DNA of 64,000 bases from assembly GCF_009806555.1 (NCBI RefSeq), contig NZ_VUOK01000040.1, forward strand, positions 186,001 through 250,000. The letters run 5' to 3'. The notes under the pieces were generated by a model. It was not told the DNA's origin. It saw nothing but the letters and a program-made list of their open reading frames with translations, and searched no databases. Below, one piece after another: positions 2,945 to 13,768 of this stretch. The translations under genes and the position numbers were made by a program. The stretch is from Methylobacterium sp. 2A (lineage in GTDB: Bacteria > Pseudomonadota > Alphaproteobacteria > Rhizobiales > Beijerinckiaceae). The first letter of the stretch is position 1; every line of letters starts with the position of its first letter.

Positions 2945-3220
2945 TCAAGGATGCGGCGCGGGCGAGAAGCGGGCGGGCTCCGGCCCGTGGATACTCCGCG
3001 GCAGGATACGGCTGCCCTTCGCGCTCAGGAACCAGAGACCCGCCGTCCCGTCACCGGACCGTCTGGGCCGGACCAGCCCCCGCGCGAGAAGGGAGCGCAC
3101 GGTGCGCATTTCCCAGGGGCCGGGCGACGGCAGGGCGCCCTCGCGCTCCAATCGGCGCAGCATTATCTGCTGCGCCGGGGTAAGGGCGCGCCAAGCCGGG
3201 GACAGTTCAGACTCTGCCAT
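2945..3220 (-). CDS. Small hypothetical protein, possibly winged-helix-like
   Basis: A 91-residue protein with no family I recognise. Its composition is protein-like: LTPAQQIMLRRLEREG followed by MRTVRSLLARGLV and a strand-like GLWFLSAKG, in the order expected of a small winged helix that reads out as helix-helix-wing. The C-terminus is proline-rich and probably disordered. No strong Shine-Dalgarno sequence precedes the ATG. Opposite-strand frames over the same bases look like shadows. A role as a small DNA-binding protein is only a guess from the helix pattern. Confidence 0.45.
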   Translation of the reverse strand: MAESELSPAWRALTPAQQIMLRRLEREGALPSPGPWEMRTVRSLLARGLVRPRRSGDGTAGLWFLSAKGSRILPRSIHGPEPARFSPAPHP

Positions 3221-3511
3221 GACAGATTGGAACTAATCCAATGTGCGGCGCGCTGACAAGACGAATGGCCGCGCGCCTCGCTGCGAAGTGATAGACTTAC
3301 GGCTTGGGCCATCAGGGCAGCCTCGGTCGGGCTGAGTCTCACCGCCGAGCAGCCTCACGGATCGCCCTGACGCAGGGAAGAGCGGCTTCGCCGCGTCTTC
3401 CCCGCTCTGCAGGATGGGAACGGTGATGCGGAAGGCGATCCTGACCGTCAGGGAGTGCCGAAAGCGCGTCATACCCCGGAACGGCGCCGCCTGCTCAACA
3501 CCCTAGCCCAT

Positions 3512-3658
3512 ATGGGCGCGCTCGCCATCGCCCGGGGCTTCGTCGAGGCGAAGGGCGGCACCGTTACGGCGGCGAATTGGGGCGATCGCAGGGGAGCCTG
3601 CTTCACCATGACCCCGCCGGTTCCCAACCGGGTCGCGCTGCAAGTCATCGCGGCCTGA
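3512..3658 (+). pseudogene. C-terminal remnant of a sensor histidine kinase (KdpD-like)
   Basis: The last ~48 residues read MGALAIARGFVEAKGGTV...AANWGDRRGACFTM. This matches the end of a HATPase_c domain, where an intact kinase has G-L-G-L-A-I-x-R-x-F-V-E-A-x-G-G followed by A-A-N-R and a final F-T-I-x-L-P. The G-L-G-L part of the G2 box is damaged, and nothing upstream encodes the phosphoacceptor helix, N box or G1 box. The piece therefore cannot be an active kinase. Wording of the motif is closest to KdpD, but other hybrid kinases share it. Confidence 0.6.
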
Positions 3659-3670
3659 TCGGCCCGGCCG

Positions 3671-5017
3671 TCAATGCGCTCCCCCGACGAACACGAACTT
3701 GAACAGGAAGATCGCGGCGATCACCCACACCACCGGCTTCACCTCCCGCGCCCGGCCGGTGAGGAGCTTGAGCGCCGCGTAGGTGATGAAGCCGCAGGAG
3801 ACCCCGGTGGCGATCGAGTAGGTGAACGGCATGAGCAGCGCGGTCACGCAGGCCGGGATCACCTCGGTGCGATCGTCCCAGTCGAGATCGGCCAGGTCGC
3901 GCAGCATCAGGCAGGCGACGTAGAACAGGGCCGGTGCGGTCGCGTAGGGTGGCACCGCCGCCGCCAGCGGGGCGAAGAACAGGCAGGCCAGGAACAGGGC
4001 CGCCACCGTCACGGCGGTGAGCCCGGTCCTTCCCCCCTCCTCCACCCCGGAGGCGCTCTCGAGATACGCGGTGGTGCTCGACGTTCCGAGCAGCGAGCCC
4101 GCGAAGACCGAGACGGAATCGGCCATCAGCGCCCGGTCGAGGCGACGCATTCGGCCCTCCGTGAGCAGACCCGCGCGGTTGGCTACGCCCATCAGCGTAC
4201 CGGTGGCGTCGAACAGCTCGACCAGGAACAGGACGAGGATCACGTTCAGCAGACCGCCCGAAAGCGCGCCCGGGATATCGAGCGCGAACAGCGTCGGGGC
4301 GATGGAGGGCGGCAGAGAGACGAGGCCCTGGAAACTGTTGCCCGCCACGGCGAAGCTGAGGACGGTGACCGCGAGGATGCTGGACAGCAGCGCCGCCCGT
4401 ACCTTTCGGGCCGATAGAACGGCGACCATGAGAAAGCCGATCACCGCCAGCACGACCGCGGGCTTGTGCAGGTCGCCGAGGGTGACGAAGGTCGCCGGGC
4501 TCGCCGCGACGACACCGGCATTCCTCAGGGCGATGATCGCCAGGAACAGCCCGATCCCCGCCGTGATCGCGATGCGCATGGAGGGCGGGATTCCATCGAC
4601 GATGATCGCCCGCAAGCCGGTCAGCGTGACGATCAGGAAGCACAGGCCGGAGATGAACACTGCCCCGAGGGCGGCCGGCCAGGAAAAGCCGAGGCCCTGC
4701 ACCACCACGTAGGTGAAATAGGCGTTGAGCCCCATCCCGGGCGCGAGGGCGATCGGATAATTGGCGTAGAGCCCCATGATCGCCGAGCCGAGAGCCGCCA
4801 CGAGGCAGGTCGCCACGAACACGGCGCCCCGGGGCATGCCGGCATCGGCCAGGATGCTGGGGTTGACGAAGACGATGTAGGCCATCGTCAGGAAGGTGGT
4901 CAGACCCGCCAGCAGCTCGGTGCGGACGGTGGTGCCGTGCTCGGCGAGCCGGAAGGTGCGTTCCAGAAGGCCGCCTGGGTTTGGCGCGGGCGAGACCGCG
5001 CCTCGCTTCATGTCCAT
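3671..5017 (-). CDS. NCS2/AzgA-type purine permease
   Basis: A polytopic membrane protein of about 448 residues of the adenine/guanine/hypoxanthine permease group. The N-terminus has [21 protein letters not shown], then [13 protein letters not shown], a hallmark of AzgA/GhxP-like proteins; a late [10 protein letters not shown] motif also fits. It should import a purine base by proton symport. The ATG at 5017 is chosen because GAGG lies 7 nt upstream; an ATG at 5038 and one at 5011 (ATGA overlap with the upstream stop) are alternatives. It overlaps the end of the molybdopterin dehydrogenase gene, so import and oxidation are probably co-transcribed. The exact base carried (xanthine, hypoxanthine, guanine or adenine) cannot be told from sequence. 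Confidence 0.88.
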
Positions 5018-7752
5018 GCCGCGTCCTCGCTCAGGCATGTCGCGACGGCCCGATAGATCCGGTCCGGCGCGAACGGCGTCGCCGTGAGCCGCGCCCCGGT
5101 GGCGTCGCGGATCGCGTTTCCGAGCGCCGCCGCGACCGGATTGTAGGGCGATTCGCTCATCGACTTCGCGCCCAGCGGCCCGACGCTATCGTACGTCTCG
5201 GCGAAGAGGACCTGCGTGTCCGGGACATCGGCGCAGGCGGGGACGTGGTAATCGCGGAAGACCTGCGTGACGACCCGGCCCTCGCCGTCGATGCGGACAT
5301 CCTCGTAGAGCGCGGCGCCGATCGCCTGCGCGACGCCGCCCTCCACTTGGCCGCGGCACTGCATCGGGTTGATGACGCGGCCGGCATCGGCGGCGTGGAT
5401 GCTGCGCAGGATGCGCACTTCCCCGGTCTGCGGCCGGACGGCCACCCGGAAGGCCTGGACGTTGAACGACACCGAGCGCGGGCTGCCGTCGGCGCGTCCA
5501 TCGGCTTCGAGCGGTCCGAGCGCGGCGAGCGCGAGCGGGCCGTGCGGGGTCTCGACCGCGTCGCCGGTTAACCGGCACGCCTCGGCCGCCGAGCCGGACA
5601 ATTCGGCCGCGCGCGCAAGGATTTGCTCCGCCAGAGCCTCGGCGGCCCGCAGAACCGCGAGGCCGCCAACTACGGTGCCGGTGCTGCCATAGGCGCCCGT
5701 GTCGTGGCCGACCGCGTCCGTGTCGGCGCCGAGGATCCGGACGCGTTCGGGATCGGCGCGCAACGAAGAGGCCGCGATCTGGCGATGCACCGTGATCGTC
5801 CCATTGCCGAACTCGGCGGTGCCGACCCTGACGGTGTAGCTGCCGTCCGCCTCCAGGGCCGCCCGGGCATCGGCGAAGTGGCCGCGGGGCGGGATCGTGT
5901 CGATCATCGCCATCGCCATGCCGGTGCCGGCGCGCCAGCCGGGCTCCGGCTCGGGCCCGGGGTCGGATCGCAGGGCCGCCTCCACCAGATCCAGGCACTG
6001 GTCGAGTCCGTAGCTGCCGAACACCACGTCGTGCGGCTCCAGGCTGTTCGACACCATGGCGTCGCCCGGCCTTACGGCGTTGCGGCGACGCAGGCTGAAC
6101 GGATCCAGGTCGAGACGCCGGGCGACCTCGTCCAGGGCGGATTCGAGGGCGAAGACCGTCTGGCTCAGACCGTATCCCCGGAAGGCGCCGGCCGGCACCG
6201 TATGGGTGTAGACCGCGCGTCCCGCGACGCGCTTGTTCGGGCAGGCATAGGCGGCCAGCACCTCGTTGCAGCCGTGGTGGATCACCCCGCCCGCATGGTT
6301 GCCGTAGGCGCCCGTATCGGAGAGCACGGCGAGGTCGATGGCAGTGAGCGTCCCGTCCCGGCGGGCGCCGACCGTAACCGTGACCCGCATCGGGTGGCGC
6401 GTCGTGGTCGCGGTGAACTGCTCCTGCCGGGTCAGCTCCCAGCGCACCGGGCGGCCGGTTCGCAGCACCGCCAGGGCAACGAGGTCTTCGGTCAGCATCT
6501 CCTGCTTGCCGCCGAACCCGCCGCCGACCCGACCGCAGACGACGCGCACGGCGTCCTGCTCCAGGCCGAACAGGTCGCACAGGGCGTCGCGCGTGAGGAA
6601 CGGCACCTGGCTGCTGGTGCGCAGCGTCAGGCGGCCGTCAGCATCGCGCCAGCCGATGCAGCCATGGGTCTCCAGAGCCGCGTGCTGGACGCGCTGGGAC
6701 AGGAACGTCTCCGTGTAGACGATGTCGGCGGCGGCAAGCCCCGCCGCGACGTCGCCGATCTCGCCATGGACCTCCGCGGCAAGGTTCGGGTGACGCCCGA
6801 GCGGCGGCGCGTCGGCGCCGGGTGGTTCGCCGCGTTCGTGGACCCGCGGGGCATCCGCTTCGAGGGCGCGCGCCGGATCGAGCAGGGGGGGCCGAACCTC
6901 ATAGGTCACGCGCAGCGCCCGGCAGCCGGCCTCGGCGGCCGCCTCGGTCTCGGCGACCACCGCGGCGACCCGCTGGCCGACGAAGCGCAGGATCGGATCG
7001 AGCACGCGCGTATCGGCGGCATCGTCCCGGGGGTCCTGGTGGCGGCCGGTCGAGAAGCGGCGGGCCGGAGCATCCGCGTGGGTGAGGATGGCGACGACGC
7101 CGGGAATCGCCGCCGCCGCGGACACGTCGATCGCCACGATGCGGGCATGGGCGTGCGGCGAGCGCAGGACTTTGAGGTGGAGGGCTTCCCCGGGTGGGAG
7201 GTCGAGGGTGAAAGGCGCCCGTCCGGAAACCACGAGCGGCGCCGCCGGTGCAGGCACGTTCCGCCCCACGGGATCGCCGCCCGCCCCTACGCCCGCCGCA
7301 TGGCCGACCCCCGCGATCGCGTCCCGGATTGCGCGATAGCCGGTGCAGCGGCAGAGGTTGCCCTTCAACGCGGTGCCGAGGTCCCGCCGCTGACCCTGGT
7401 CGAGGGCGGCCGCGGTCATGATCATGCCCGGCGTGCAGAAGCCGCACTGGAAACCCTGCGCGGCCAGGAACGCGGCCTGCATCGGATGCAGCGCCCGAGG
7501 CGCATCCTCGCCCGTCCGGCATGGGCCGGCGAGCCCCTCGATGGTGGTCACGCTCCGGCCCTCGGCGCGGAAGGCCGGGATCAGGCAGCTATGCACTGGC
7601 TCGCCATCGAGATGGATCGTGCAGGCGCCGCAATCGCCCGCATCACAGCCTTTCTTGACGCCGAACCACCCGGCCTCGCGCAGGTAGGTGCGCAGGCATT
7701 GGCCGGGCCGCGGCTCGGCCTCGTGTGCGGTTCCGTTGATCGTCAGATGCAT
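5008..7752 (-). CDS. Fused [2Fe-2S]/molybdopterin dehydrogenase, xanthine dehydrogenase family
   Basis: A 914-residue cytoplasmic protein of the xanthine/aldehyde oxidoreductase family. Residues 1-75 form a plant-type 2Fe-2S domain with Cys36, 41, 44 and 56; residues 80-150 form the second cluster domain with Cys103, 106, 134 and 136. From about residue 180 the molybdenum subunit follows, with GGGFGGKQ, a later AFRGYG loop and a C-terminal GAKSMSESP region where the catalytic Glu is expected. This small-plus-large fusion resembles the domain order of Desulfovibrio aldehyde oxidoreductase, but here FAD is supplied by the adjacent upstream gene (10-bp overlap). A GGGAGAGGGCGG ribosome site precedes the ATG. 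The purine permease downstream makes xanthine/hypoxanthine the likely substrate; an aldehyde or other heterocycle is possible. Confidence 0.88.
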
Positions 7753-8573
7753 GATCCGCCCTCTCCCAGGGCGTCGCGGATCTCCCGGGCGAGGAGACCG
7801 GTGACGTGGCGCCGCCAGTCGGGACGGCCATGAACGTCATCGTGGTAGAGGGCGTCGGGGATCGCGGCGGCGATGGCCTGGGCCAGGGCCGCATCGTCGG
7901 GCAGGCCGTCGAAGGCGAGGCGGATCGGCCGGCGAACCGCGGCCGTCACGGTGAGCGCGACGGCGCCGCTGGCCTCCAGCGTACCGATCAGGAGCGCCCC
8001 GGATCGGCCGGCCGGGCTCAGGCTGATGCGCCGGAACGCCGTCCGCCGCATCAGAGCCTCCGTCGGGATGTGCAGGCCGCGCAGGATCTCGCCGGGGCGC
8101 AGGGCGTTGCGCCGGGGACCGAGCACGAAATCCATCGCGGGCAGATCCCGCTCGGCCCCATCCGCCGACCAGATCGTGCAACGCGCGTCCAGCGCCGCAG
8201 CCAGCGCGGTCATCGGCCCGGCCGGAAGGGCGAGGCAGAGATTGCCGCCCACGGTCGCGGTGTTCCAGATCTTGAACGAGCCGAGAAGCGCGCGGCAGCA
8301 CTGCCCGATCAGAGGCGCTGCGCTCCAGGCGGGCGGGAGATCGAGCCGGTCGAGCTGCGCGAAGGTGCAGGTCGCCGCGAGCGTCAGGCCGTCCGGTCCG
8401 ATCGCGTGCGGCGACCATCCGAGACTCGTCAAGTCGACAAGGCGGCGCGTCGTGAGCTGCGGCTCGGAGAACAGCCACGTCCCGCCCGCGAGGCAGGCAT
8501 CGCCGTCCTGCCAGGACGGCAGCTGCGATCGGCTTCGCGGCCGGAGAACGGTCTCGACGGTGTTGAGATCCAT
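7743..8573 (-). CDS. FAD-binding subunit of the molybdenum dehydrogenase (XDH FAD domain)
   Basis: A 276-residue CoxM/XdhB-like protein. It has AGGTWL near the N-terminus (FAD pyrophosphate loop), [14 protein letters not shown] in the middle (the second FAD-binding motif), and a C-terminal CO-dehydrogenase flavoprotein-like domain. It would pass electrons from the iron-sulphur clusters of the fused partner to NAD or another acceptor. It is the first gene of a tightly overlapping three-gene unit with the fused dehydrogenase and the permease, and diverges from the broken uricase gene. Confidence 0.85.
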
Positions 8574-8720
8574 ATGGCTCGCTATCCGGCAGGGGGATTC
8601 GAGCGACGCACTATGCGTGCCGGTCCGCGGACCCGGTCAAGTCGAGGCACGGCCGGCCAGGCTTGGGACCTCGGGGATCGCGTCCTAAGCTCCGCCCGAC
8701 CCCTCCAACCGGCGATCACC

Positions 8721-9497
8721 ATGCCGCTGACGGCCGCGCGCTTCGGAAAGGAGCGCGTTCGGGTGATGCGGCTCGCCCGCGACGGCGACAACCGGGCCTG
8801 CATCGCGACCGACAGCGTGAAGAACATCGTCAACGTGACGGCGGCCCGGAATCTCACGCTCGACGCGGAATCGTTCGTCGGTACGGTGGCGCGCGTGCTC
8901 CTCGAAACCTATCCGCAGGTCGCTTCGGTCTCGATCGAGGCCGAAGAGACGCGGTGGCTGCGCCACGCCGTCGATGGTCTGCCGCATGGTCAAACCTTCA
9001 CCCGCGACGGGAACGGCTTCGGCCTCGTGGCCGATCGCGCCGGATCGACCCTCCGCTCGGGTCTGCGCGGCTTCACCTTCATGAAGACCACGCAGTGCGG
9101 CTGGACCGGATTCGTCGATGACCCGTACCGCACCCTGCCCGCGATACGACCGACCGGATCGCCGCCACCAGCGCGGACGCCGCCTGGTCCTGGTCGGCGA
9201 AGCCGGCCGATTACGGGATTGTGAACACCCGCATCCTCGCGATCCTGCTGCGGGTATGTGGCACCACCTGAAGCCGGGGCATCCAGGACAGCCTGTACCG
9301 GATGGGCGAGGCCGCGCTCGCCGAGGTCCCGGAACTGGCCGACATCGCCTTCGTGATGCCGAACAAGCATGATGCCGAACAAGCATGATGTGCCGACCGA
9401 TCTGAGACCGTTCGGTCTCGACCACGGCGGCGCCGTTTTCCTGCCGACCGACGAGCCGTATCGCCGGATCGAGACGACGATCGGCCGTCGCGACTGA
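8721..9497 (+). pseudogene. Uricase (urate oxidase) pseudogene with several lesions
   Basis: Three consecutive pieces match urate oxidase: LTAARFGKERVRVMRLARDGD, then ATDSVKNIVNV through FMKTTQ...GF, then DTTDRIAATSADAAWSW, SRGIQDSLYRMGEA, FVMPNKH and a final FGLDHGGAVFLPTDEP. They cannot be read as one protein. About 30 residues normally found between R-D-G-D and E-G-D-N appear deleted near 8784-8792. A single-base shift occurs near 9138-9143. An in-frame TGA sits at 9269-9271. A 16-bp tandem duplication (9355-9370 and 9371-9386) shifts the frame again. The active-site region ATDS is still visible. It lies divergent from an intact purine dehydrogenase gene, so urate oxidation has been lost here. 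Confidence 0.9.
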
Positions 9498-9806
9498 CCG
9501 TCTGCGAGGCACGACGGTGCCCGGATCACCGGAGCCAGCCAGGTACGCTCTGCGACAGGGTCGGGAGCGACGCAATCATAAGGCGAACTTGCATCAAAGA
9601 TGCTCGTGATGCGCGAAGATCAAGAGTCGATCTGTGCTCCCTTAACTCGGATGTAAGAGCTGCGGATCATAGGGAATGCTTACGCATCGGGCATCCATGC
9701 GCGGCGCATTGCAAAACAGATCAATTCTGCGCCGCGTGATCAGGCTCGATTTCGGTGTGGACGCGCTTGGCGGGTGGGCGCGTCTTCCTGATCCTCGGAG
9801 AGAACC
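9498..9806. other. Intergenic stretch with no gene seen
   Basis: About 310 bp between the uricase remnant and the chemoreceptor. I see no coding pattern, no tRNA-like fold and no clear promoter consensus. The last bases hold the GGAGAG ribosome site of the chemoreceptor gene. Confidence 0.6.
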
Positions 9807-11291
9807 ATGTTTGCGCGCCTGGCCAGACGGCGGGATCAGCGTGCCAAGCTCGCGGCCTTGAGCCGCTCGCTGGCGACGATCGAATTCGCGTTGAACGGCA
9901 CCATCCTGGATGCCAACCCGAATTTCCTGGCCGCCATGGGCTACAGCCTCAACGAGATCCGGGGCCGCCATCACAGCCTGTTCGTGGAGCCCGCGTTCCG
10001 GGAGAGTGCGGCCTATCTGCAGTTCTGGGAATGCCTTCGGCGCGGCGAATACCAGACGGCCGAGTATAAGCGCATCGCCAAAGGCGGCCGCGAGGTCTGG
10101 ATCCAAGCCACCTACAATCCCGTCTTCAACGCCGCCGGCAAGCCGACCAAGATCGTCAAATTCGCCACCGACATCACGGCCGAGAAGTTGCTCGCGCTGG
10201 ATCTCGAAGGGCAGATCCAGGCCCTGCACCGCTCGCAGGCCGTCATCGCCTTCTCACTCGACGGCACGATCGTGAGCGCCAACCAAAACTTTCTGGGGGC
10301 GGTCGGGTACCGGCTCGATGAGATCGTGGGCCGTCACCACAGCCTGTTCGTCAGCGAAGCCGAACGTTCGAGCGAGGCGTATCGCGCGTTCTGGGCGGCG
10401 CTCGGACGCGCGGAATTCCAGTCCGGCGCATTCAAGCGCGTGGCCAAGGGCGGCCGCGAAATCTGGATTCAGGCGACCTACAATCCGATCACCGACGGGG
10501 AGGGGCGACCGATCCGCGTCGTGAAGTTCGCGACCGACATCACCGCTCAGGTGAAGGAGCGCGAGCGACGGGCAGAGGTCCAGAAGGCGGTCGCCACCGA
10601 ACTCGATGCGATCGGTGGCGCTGTCGAGGAGGTGAGCCAGCAGACGCGCGATGCGGCCAAAACCGTGGGCCGCGTCTCGGATGATATCCGGTCGGTGGCG
10701 ACCGGTTCGGAGCAACTGGCGTTCTCGGTGAACGAGATCAGCCAGCAGGTGAGTCACGCGGCCGGCGTCGCCGGGCAGGCCGTCGAGCAGGCACAGCGCA
10801 CGGGCCAGATCGTCTCCGGCCTGAGCGACCAGGCGACGCAGATCGGGGCCGTGGTCGGACTGATCTCCGGCATCGCCGCCCAGACCAACCTCCTCGCGTT
10901 GAACGCCACGATCGAGGCGGCGCGCGCCGGCGAAGCCGGGCGCGGCTTCGCCATCGTCGCCAGCGAGGTGAAGACCCTGGCGCTTCAGACCGGACGCGCC
11001 ACCGATGAGATCCGCGAGCAGATCGCCGCGACGCAGTCGACGACCCGCGAAGCCGTGGTCGCGATCGGTACCATCCGGGACACGATCGAAACGTTGAACG
11101 CCGTTTCGTCGGCGATCGCATCGGCGGTGGAAGAGCAATCCGTGGTGACCCGGGAAATGTCGAGCAGCTTGCAGACCGCTTACGGTGGCGTGGCTGCGAT
11201 CACCTCGGGCATGAATACGATCGCCGAAGCGAGCACGCGCCTCGACCAAGCGACCCGCCACGTGCGGGAGGCGTCACGATCGATGGGCTGA
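9807..11291 (+). CDS. Soluble methyl-accepting chemotaxis protein with two PAS domains
   Basis: A 494-residue cytoplasmic chemoreceptor without membrane segments. Two near-identical PAS domains (about 17-130 and 139-250) each begin with an [15 protein letters not shown] or [19 protein letters not shown] strand and end with a PAC-like WIQATYNP...KFATDIT segment, so they arose by internal duplication. A signalling domain follows, with the conserved hairpin tip [26 protein letters not shown] pairs of this type often bind haem or flavin and sense oxygen or redox state, as in Aer or BdlA, but no haem ligand can be named with confidence. GGAGAG lies just upstream of the ATG. It converges on the histidine kinase gene. 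Confidence 0.92.
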
Positions 11292-11309
11292 GATCCCGGC
11301 TCCGTGCGG

Positions 11310-11351
11310 GACCCCTGATCTCGGCGGCGGGAACCGGCCGGAGATCGGGTC
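11310..11351. terminator. Possible bidirectional terminator between convergent genes
   Basis: GACCC-CT-GATCTC pairs with GAGATCGGGTC around an 18-nt loop, between the stops of the chemoreceptor and the kinase gene. There is a two-base bulge and no T tract, so its strength is doubtful. Confidence 0.35.
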
Positions 11352-12069
11352 AGTTCGCCTCACCGGTCTCGTTCGCGCCGCCCTCGTCGATGACACGGCC
11401 GATCCGCGGTACGAGCGGGAGACGCATCGTGCATCGCAAGCCGTCTGTTTCAAAGGCGAGGTCGATCCGGGCATTCAGCTCATAGCGCAGCATGTCGTTC
11501 AGCACCTGCATGCCGAAGCCTTGTCGCGCCGGTCGGGCCACATCTTTGCCGCCCGTCTCCTTCCAGATCAGCGTCAGATCGCCCGGTTGCCCGGTGGAGC
11601 GGTCATCGACCGCCCAGATGACCTCGACCTTGCCTTCGGACAATCCGAAGGCGCCGTGTTCGATTGCGTTGCTGCAGAGTTCATGCACGGCCAGCGCCAT
11701 GACCTGCCCGGCTTTGGGCCGGAGACGGATCGTTGGACCCGCCAGTTCCGCCTGATCGCCCTCGCGGATCAGATGGACCATCAGTTCGTCCGAGATCAGC
11801 GAGTGCAGGTTGATCTCGCCCGATATGTCCAGGCCGATCCGCGCGCGGGCGATCGCATCGAGGCGACCTTCCAGATGGGTCGCATAGCTCTCGACGCTCT
11901 CCGCGGTGTCGGCAGAGAGGCGCAGCACCGCGCGCAGCATCGCCATCGTGTCGCGCAGGCTATGACGGAGCCCGTCCGGCATCCCGCGCGCATCCAGAAG
12001 ATGCCTCAGCCGCGCGTTGTCGGCCTCGAGCGCGTCCACGCGCGCGTCGCCCCCTTGATTCTGTGCCAT
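11350..12069 (-). CDS. HWE-family sensor histidine kinase, no input domain
   Basis: A 239-residue cytosolic kinase. The HWE signature is present: the N box VHELCSNAIEHGA (His129, Asn134), the W-x-E of the G1 region (IWKETGG) and a G2-like GFGMQVL. The dimerisation helix LRHSLRDTMAMLRAV offers His36 as phosphoacceptor; it differs from the usual N-H-R-V-K-N form. No PAS, GAF or membrane segment precedes it, so it must receive its signal from a partner or be regulated through the short N-terminal coiled coil (DALEADNARLRHLLD). The ATG at 12069 is preferred over 12120 because GGAGAAGG lies 5 nt upstream. No response regulator is adjacent. HWE kinases often feed light, stress or general-stress pathways in this order. 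Confidence 0.85.
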   Translation of the reverse strand: MAQNQGGDARVDALEADNARLRHLLDARGMPDGLRHSLRDTMAMLRAVLRLSADTAESVESYATHLEGRLDAIARARIGLDISGEINLHSLISDELMVHLIREGDQAELAGPTIRLRPKAGQVMALAVHELCSNAIEHGAFGLSEGKVEVIWAVDDRSTGQPGDLTLIWKETGGKDVARPARQGFGMQVLNDMLRYELNARIDLAFETDGLRCTMRLPLVPRIGRVIDEGGANETGEAN

Positions 12070-12607
12070 GCAGGCCTTCTCCGGGCGAAAAGCCGCGATG
12101 ATGCGTCTGGCTCCAGACACGAGCGTGATGCCTGCACGACCATCACGTGTTCAAAATATACGGTCAACCACATCCCGCCGATCAATCGGCCACCTGTGAC
12201 CTGCGGGCGGTGCGACGTTTTTGACATTCCGGTCTCGGCCGGGGCGGACCGTCCGGCCTCGCCCTGCGAGTGCCTGATCGTGGGGTTCGCGGTTCATGGG
12301 AGCACCGCTCAGGATTTCGCCCCGGCTCCGGCATCGCTGCCCGAAGGAAAAGTGCGCCGTCCTCGCCGCTTCGCGATTCGTCTTATGCAGACGAGAATCC
12401 CAATCTGAGGCTTAATTTTTTATATTTGTACCACTATTTCGAGATACTCGAGATTACATACTTGAAAATACAACTAGATTTAGGCAAATCAGCTAATTGA
12501 ACGCCGATCGTTGAGAAAAAGAATTTTGCCAAAAGCGAACGCTTGAGGTAAGGGGCCAGTTTAAATCTGCTCGATGTCATGTCGTTGCAGGAACAGGTTG
12601 TCGGATC
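12070..12607. other. Intergenic region with an AT-rich patch (about 12410-12545)
   Basis: No gene is visible in this 540-bp gap. From about 12410 the base composition falls sharply, with runs such as TTAATTTTTTATATTTG and CTTGAAAATACAACTAG, unlike the rest of the window. It leads into a glycosyltransferase gene that is itself less GC-rich. The patch may hold the promoter of that gene and may mark acquired DNA. Confidence 0.6.
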
Positions 12608-13768
12608 ATGAAGTCGCCCAAACAGACGATCTGCTTATCGATGATTGTCAAGAACGAGGCCCACGTCATCCGGCGCTGCCTCGACACGGTCAGACCAGTT
12701 ATCGATCATTGGGTGATCGTCGATACCGGTTCCACGGACGGAACCCAGGATATCATCCGTTCCGCGCTGGCGGATATGCCCGGTTCGCTGGTGGAACGGC
12801 CTTGGGTCGATTTCGCCCATAACCGGAGCGAGGCGCTGCGCCTAGCCCGCCCGCATGCGACTTACACGCTGATTATCGATGCCGACGACGAACTGGTCAT
12901 CCCGGCCGGCTTCACGATGCCGAAGCTCGATGCCCCGGCTTACAACTTCACGATCCTGGACAGCTTCACGCGCTACCCGCGCACGCAGTTGGTCAGCAAC
13001 GCGTATCCCTGGCGCTATCGCGGCGTCCTGCATGAATTCATTGATTGCCCGGGGGCACCCTGGCGAAGTTCTCTGCCTCTGGCGATGCGACGCGGGGAAG
13101 ACGGCGCCCGGCATCTCGATACCAAAACCTACGCGCGTGATGCCGTGATCCTGGAGAAGGCCCTGGAAACGGAGACGGATCCATTTCTCATTGCCCGGTA
13201 CACGTTCTATCTGGCGCAAAGCTATCGAGACACCAGCGACTATAGCAACGCATTGAAATATTATTTGAAACGGGCCGAGCTCGGATACTGGGATGAGGAA
13301 GTTTATATCAGTCTGCTCAGCGCTGCCTACATCATGGAAGCCGCGGACGACTCCGTCGAAAGCGTTTTAGCCGTGTATGACCGCGCGATCGCGACGCGGC
13401 CGGAACGCGCCGAGGCGCGCCATGGGGCGAGCCGCTTCTGCCGGCGGAAGCGCAGGTTCGTCGAAGGGTTCTACTACGCCGAGGCTGGGCTACCTCCGAA
13501 GATGGCGAGTGATGGCCTTTTCACCCAGGTCTGGATCTATCAGTACGGTCTGCAAGATGAATTCGCGGTCAGCGCTTTCAACACGAGCCAATACCGCGCT
13601 TGTCTAGGGGCTTGCCTCGACATTCTTGCGAAGCCGGATGTGCCTGACGATGTGCGCACGCGCATTTCGAAATTGGCGCGTGAAGCGCTCGGGAAGATGG
13701 TGGATCCGATCTGGGGATTCGCCAAATCATCCTATCAGACGCAGTTCATGCCGCTCTGGCAATTCTGA
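12608..13768 (+). CDS. Family 2 glycosyltransferase with TPR-like C-terminus
   Basis: A 386-residue GT-A fold protein. The N-terminus has CLSMIVKNEAHVIRRCL, then IVDTGSTDGTQDII and the metal/nucleotide-sugar site IIDADDE. The second half (from about 190) is helical with TPR-like repeats (ARYTFYLAQSYRDTSDYSNALKYY), a layout seen in bacterial tetratricopeptide glycosyltransferases. It probably modifies a surface polysaccharide or protein. Codon use is less GC-rich than in neighbours (for example TTATTT and GTTTATATCAGT), and the AT-rich upstream patch suggests transfer. No other polysaccharide genes are adjacent; gmd lies about 11 kb away. A GC-rich inverted repeat at 13778-13810 follows the stop. 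Confidence 0.82.
   Translation: MKSPKQTICLSMIVKNEAHVIRRCLDTVRPVIDHWVIVDTGSTDGTQDIIRSALADMPGSLVERPWVDFAHNRSEALRLARPHATYTLIIDADDELVIPAGFTMPKLDAPAYNFTILDSFTRYPRTQLVSNAYPWRYRGVLHEFIDCPGAPWRSSLPLAMRRGEDGARHLDTKTYARDAVILEKALETETDPFLIARYTFYLAQSYRDTSDYSNALKYYLKRAELGYWDEEVYISLLSAAYIMEAADDSVESVLAVYDRAIATRPERAEARHGASRFCRRKRRFVEGFYYAEAGLPPKMASDGLFTQVWIYQYGLQDEFAVSAFNTSQYRACLGACLDILAKPDVPDDVRTRISKLAREALGKMVDPIWGFAKSSYQTQFMPLWQF

Follow-up and report, generated by a model that had tools for sequence, protein, structure and literature searches.

A decayed urate oxidase gene beside a xanthine-dehydrogenase-like operon, and an intact second uricase of different ancestry elsewhere in the genome of Methylobacterium sp. 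2A

The stretch of DNA analysed here (the window; 64,000 nucleotides, G000:C56:186001-250000) comes from Methylobacterium sp. 2A (G000), which has a 6.4-Mb genome in 67 contigs. Within it, a urate oxidase pseudogene lies divergent from the gene for the FAD-binding subunit of a molybdenum hydroxylase and is followed by two genes that anchor the synteny with relatives. The features of this locus are the following.

3671-5038, minus strand: purine-type permease (Xan_ur_permease), intact, from a profile match.
5008-7752, minus strand: fused [2Fe-2S] and molybdopterin subunit of 914 aa, intact and xanthine-dehydrogenase-like, from profile matches.
7743-8573, minus strand: FAD-binding subunit of the molybdenum hydroxylase, intact, the divergent neighbour of the pseudogene, from PF00941.
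8721-9498, plus strand: urate oxidase pseudogene, the resident (xdh-side) copy, from PF01014, tblastn and tree placement.
8721-9224, plus strand: longest ORF remaining in the uricase frame, 167 aa, with its tail in shifted wording and the first stop at 9222-9224.
8780-8790, plus strand: junction of a 75-bp in-frame deletion (25 codons); query positions 581-588 are common to both halves of the match.
9020-9023, plus strand: 9-bp in-frame deletion with its junction at ~9021/9022, from the rows of the uricase alignment.
9138-9144, plus strand: frameshift by a net gain of two bases, from comparison with all four sister genes.
9269-9271, plus strand: TGA that reads in the shifted uricase frame; all four sister genes have a tyrosine codon at this place.
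9354-9390, plus strand: 16-bp tandem duplication (2.3 copies, 100% matched), which returns the reading to the first frame.
9807-11291, plus strand: PAS/methyl-accepting chemotaxis protein, the downstream synteny anchor, from a profile match and the synteny of relatives.
11350-12120, minus strand: HWE histidine kinase, a further synteny anchor, from a profile match and the synteny of relatives.

Homology to uricase extends over most of the length of the enzyme, in keeping with a first-pass annotation that had found the uricase wording clear throughout. The PF01014 profile matches the window at 8781-9011 and 9143-9370, and a tblastn search with the intact paralogue described below recovered the pseudogene in three pieces, 8721-9140, 9143-9370 and 9372-9488 (64%, 68% and 72% identity, respectively), which span paralogue residues 3-280 with a joint E value of 7e-97. 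The gene bears five lesions of four kinds, more than one of which breaks the frame. At least four had been proposed, a count that was borne out, and the 9-bp in-frame deletion is the one that had been overlooked. The remaining lesions were where the annotation had placed them, with corrections: the deletion near 8790 removes 75 bp, or 25 codons, not ~30 residues; the shift near 9140, read as one base, adds two bases net relative to the four sister genes, which in frame terms is the same as minus one; the TGA at 9269 is present but lies in the shifted frame, and translation from 8721 ends earlier, at 9222-9224; and the tandem duplication extends over 9354-9390 rather than 9355-9386. The suggestion that the duplication restores the first frame proved right, as the 2 and 16 bases together bring the reading back and the ends are co-linear, with the stop of the co-linear end at 9496-9498. 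An imperfect short direct repeat lies at both edges of the 75-bp deletion in the sister genes and in the intact paralogue, and slippage is therefore a plausible cause of that deletion. Across 43 intact sequences, 101 uricase columns are invariant, and the pseudogene departs in 18 of these, 8 having gone with the 75-bp deletion and 10 being substituted; the same test, applied to 21 of these intact rows against the rest, gave 0-3 departures each.

The broken ORF is also represented by P0241 (153 aa), which comes from a separate 2,899-base contig and equals the window ORF from the second residue of P0241 to the stop. It spans only both deletions and the shift, with the TGA and the duplication beyond its end, and it may derive from reads that are not independent. 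In the search with the 167-aa ORF, the next protein after P0241 by E value (among the best 120 of 147) was the intact uricase that is also nearest by score, with 72, 84 and 80% identity piecewise (among the best 120 of 161 proteins compared). The five lesions of four kinds and the recurrence of the broken ORF support the annotation's view that a uricase gene has decayed here, as opposed to a sequencing error. The adjoining FAD-subunit protein has a 100% identical match on five contigs, the longest of 6.38 Mb, and further genomes of this species are therefore probably in the database.

The genes next to the pseudogene had been described as intact purine genes. They are open and full-length, but the fused Fe-S/molybdopterin protein scores 505 of the 780 bits set for XdhA and reaches none of the listed equivalog cut-offs, and the genome holds no match to TIGR02965 over its cut-off. 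The protein is best described as a molybdenum hydroxylase that resembles xanthine dehydrogenase but is not proven to be one. Synteny shows that the gene order uricase-FAD-Mo is conserved, and the FAD subunit is matched at E ≤ 1e-30 in 92 of the 111 genomes of the genus. The annotation had proposed a comparison with close relatives, and an intact uricase orthologue indeed occupies the same site in all four sister genomes (G080, G087, G089 and G092).

The loss of uricase beside the purine genes, as the annotation had pictured it, does not hold for the genome. A second, intact uricase of 282 aa is encoded at G000:C10:64104-64952, with an NCBIfam equivalog score of 272 bits against a cut-off of 168. 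Thus one of the two substitutes named for a genome-wide search, another uricase or HpxO, is present; for HpxO, the best match in the genome reached 165 of 500 bits, below a cut-off that no control genome exceeded either. The genome contains no PuuD-type Urate_ox_N domain, for which the positive control was found in Caulobacter. The second uricase adjoins genes for a UraD-HiuH fusion, an NCS2-type permease and a purine-type ABC transporter, all named from reading the sequence and not from a profile call. Because this uricase is intact, urate use has probably not been lost despite the pseudogene, with the second enzyme presumably expressed and working. A broken uricase at this locus does not imply absent urate use.

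The second cluster is part of a segment of ~48 kb, bounded at one end by a tRNA-Arg gene (C10:66352-66428). Homology to G092, G089, G087 and G034 starts at the 3' end of this gene or up to 4 bases from it, so that the junction falls where that of a tRNA-anchored island would. In G034 (putatively M. phyllostachyos), the sequences matching C10:1307-18220 and C10 from position 66352 lie only ~1.3 kb apart; the ~48-kb segment is absent from this corresponding site, and G034's own second cluster is found away from it, on contigs C28 (close to the contig end) and C38. Among the matches listed, with 40 candidates scored per genome, those of the sisters to the right flank of the segment begin at L005:11349-11353; what is listed to the left of that start is each sister's xdh-side uricase, plus one permease match of 68% in G087. 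The tRNA end has no second match of at least 14 bases in G000:C10:1-84000, and no integrase was noticed by eye among the ORFs of the segment. In G087, 54 bp of the tRNA end recur ~15 kb away, at L192:18294-18347. The tRNA-Arg site is likely to be an integration hotspot.

Two further observations concern the surroundings of this tRNA gene. A near-palindromic dispersed repeat of ~180-200 bp, which folds as one long hairpin, lies at L005:14627-14830 (G000:C10 at ~69.6 kb); among the matches listed, it has dozens of copies at 78-91% identity in six relatives, and none lies in the window at a threshold of 1e-5. On the 3' side of the tRNA-Arg(ACG) gene itself (C10:66352-66428, equal to L005:11353-11429), the DNA differs between G000 and each of G034, G087, G089 and G092.

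A uricase match, fragments included, is present in 89 of the 111 genus genomes, 42 of which contributed the 44 rows of our uricase tree. The pseudogene groups with the xdh-side uricases of the four sisters (100/99), which are also the genomes that G000 joins in the tree of the xdh-like subunit (100/99), while the intact copy groups with the second uricase of G034 (100/99). A branch with support 95/94 sets the 19 native rows, the pseudogene among them, apart from the rest, with G096 next to them. The same genome therefore holds a broken resident gene and an intact second copy of different ancestry. A recent, lineage-specific duplication of the two G000 uricases was rejected (AU p 9e-89; the AU-tested groups were chosen after an earlier tree, and their p-values are indicative). 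Each of the four sisters has a single uricase match, and the UraD-HiuH fusion is matched in them only partially (best E 1.2e-47).

The second copy of G088 groups with those of G041, G082, G086 and G090 (100/100), and this placement conflicts with the xdh-like tree; its grouping with G000 and G034, which was chosen afterwards, is opposed by an AU p of 5e-61. The conflict argues for at least one transfer among these species. The synonymous distances are not decisive for transfer: dS to G034 is low for the second-copy genes (0.13-0.23), but of ten core genes (0.19-0.84) four are equally low, at 0.19-0.23, the others falling at 0.47-0.84.

The dN/dS of the pseudogene against the sisters is 0.17-0.23, compared with 0.13-0.21 for pairs of sisters, and its dN to four outgroups is above that of G080 by 0.007-0.022 (over 249 codons for the pseudogene and 278 for G080). 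A dN/dS near that of the sisters, together with so small an excess of dN, indicates that most of the divergence would have accumulated while the gene still worked, before its death. The decay looks recent.

The fate of the site was then compared across relatives, with states coded by hand, in all 27 genomes whose FAD subunit is at least 71% identical to that of the window; G035 falls in the outgroup, which leaves a clade of 26. An intact uricase stands beside the FAD gene in 18 of the 26, and the 8 that have no intact copy at the site are G000, G034, G041, G082, G083, G088, G090 and G096. All 8 have a uricase elsewhere, compared with 1 of the 18 that retain the site-copy. This one genome, G086, holds both copies intact, which suggests that gain can precede loss. 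Two of the codings call for caution. The uricase of G096 lies 1.6 kb from the FAD gene, with UraD-HiuH between them, and branches beside the native clade, so its coding as a lost site-copy is doubtful; with G096 left out, a uricase is found elsewhere in 7 of 7. The second copy of G083 lies ~10 kb from the FAD gene, and its coding is soft. Fisher's test, which ignores shared ancestry, gave 5.8e-6; leaving out G096 raised this to 1.7e-5, and leaving out both G096 and G083 to 5.2e-5. A phylogenetic pair test had 4 usable pairs, of which 3 or 4 were as expected (median p 0.125), and 3 pairs when G096 was omitted (p 0.25); once kinship is corrected for, the sample is too small for the association to reach significance.

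Relics of different sizes persist at up to five of the other sites that have no intact copy. G041 keeps the first ~155 codons and G082 much the same part in a far more decayed form, and the two relics could stem from one common truncation. The last ~40 codons remain in G090, joined to the spacer. Smaller remains comprise a 172-bp stretch in G034 (E 5e-10) and, in G088, the spacer with two scraps of 22 bp and 37 bp. The site in G083 gave a single 22-bp match, and that in G096 gave none. Among five control sites, four gave no match and one gave a 35-bp match, and shuffled sequences produced a relic-like match at 1e-3 in 5 of 100 trials for G034 and 1 of 100 for G088. The two smallest relics, those of G034 and G088, are weak because shuffles and one control site also give matches.

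Other genomes illustrate further fates of these genes. G023 (L181) and G019 (L183) contain uricase fragments only, beside an NCS2-type permease, and no second uricase match, so here the gene has been lost without being replaced. The second cluster of G088 is itself damaged: its UraD-HiuH fusion (L173:5962-6268) is reduced to two pieces, residues 1-38 and 213-294, an indication that the incoming cluster decays too.

We consider it probable that the resident uricase of G000 decayed once it had become redundant, as a case of xenologous replacement. The ancestor would have carried a uricase divergent from the xdh-like operon, as the four sister species still do. The lineage would then have acquired a second uricase of another clade, by horizontal transfer, along with the UraD-HiuH fusion, the NCS2 permease and the purine-type ABC transporter, a cluster whose present place is the ~48-kb segment against the tRNA-Arg gene. 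With urate oxidation doubly covered, purifying selection on the resident copy would have lapsed, and that copy could then have gathered its deletions, shift, stop and duplication. From the relatives of G000 and from the state of the pseudogene, we infer that the second copy arrived before the decay.

Four other readings were weighed. In the first, the common ancestor of the clade already had both loci and its descendant species differ in which one they kept, with no transfer into the G000 lineage. Such differential loss would sit well with the closest second copy being that of G034, the next branch out, and with the low dS shared by some core genes, and G086 shows that both copies can be held; yet it requires that the second cluster was lost in all four sisters and came to lie in different places in G000 and G034, and the second copy of the near relative G088 is on another branch (AU p 5e-61, for the grouping picked afterwards). 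We regard it as unlikely. Somewhat less likely still is a loss that came first, in which the resident gene died in a urate-free niche and the second copy was taken up later. The two intact genes of G086 fit acquisition first better, as do the nearly full length of the pseudogene and its little excess dN, and neither amounts to proof; on the side of an early loss are the lack of any record of the order of events in G000 and the existence of loss without replacement in G023 and G019.

It is very improbable that the remnant still has a use, whether in encoding a truncated protein or through sequence that also belongs to the promoter region of the divergent xdh-like operon. The 167-aa ORF persists, and the spacer by the FAD gene can still be made out in genomes that have lost the body of the uricase (G090, G088), but 25 first-half residues are missing from the ORF, as is the entire second half with its conserved PNKH wording, and a scan of window positions 3000-13000 found no Rfam family at gathering score. 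Least credible of all is an assembly or sequencing artefact, for although the genome is a draft in 67 contigs, tandem duplications can arise in assembly and the TGA and duplication lie outside the coverage of the second contig, the lesions are five and of four kinds, 10 invariant positions are altered by substitution and a separate contig repeats the ORF with both deletions and the shift.

The xenologous replacement proposed for G000 may be one instance of a wider pattern, in which a mobile urate cluster, made up of an ABC importer, an NCS2 permease, a uricase and UraD-HiuH, has repeatedly taken the place of the xdh-side uricase, with redundancy preceding decay and with stages that run from two intact genes, through a wreck with five lesions, to scraps of 22-37 bp. 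We put this forward tentatively, as a plausible pattern that we would stop just short of calling probable. If true, the clade would be a natural clock for the death of an enzyme gene after redundancy created by transfer. Such graded, related genomes make it testable whether resident genes die before or after the transferred counterpart arrives. The mechanisms of pseudogenization in M. leprae have reportedly been the subject of a published study. Among open-licence PMC papers, none was found on this replacement for the Methylobacterium uricase. The process is already known, and the clade is a well-staged example of it.

Set against known systems, the two G000 genes stand in different relations to urate oxidase. 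The pseudogene is a former member of the family (PF01014, TIGR03383) whose five breaks make a full enzyme impossible, while the second copy aligns with solved uricase structures, among them 7f2v (residues 2-280) and 1vax (residues 5-280). The segment that carries the second copy resembles a tRNA-anchored genomic island in that it ends at the 3' end of tRNA-Arg and in that G087 has a copy of the tRNA end; it differs in that G000 shows no far-side repeat of the tRNA end and no integrase was seen by eye. The closest parallel to the replacement is the loss-reacquisition cycle described for E. coli enzymes, in which loss is argued to precede regain (PMC13322260). Both cases pair a broken resident gene in a conserved neighbourhood with a diverged, intact counterpart in a variable one. 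Unlike the E. coli case as it is presented there, the Methylobacterium case plays out between species of one genus and has left relics of graded size, and the relative that holds both copies leans towards gain before loss.
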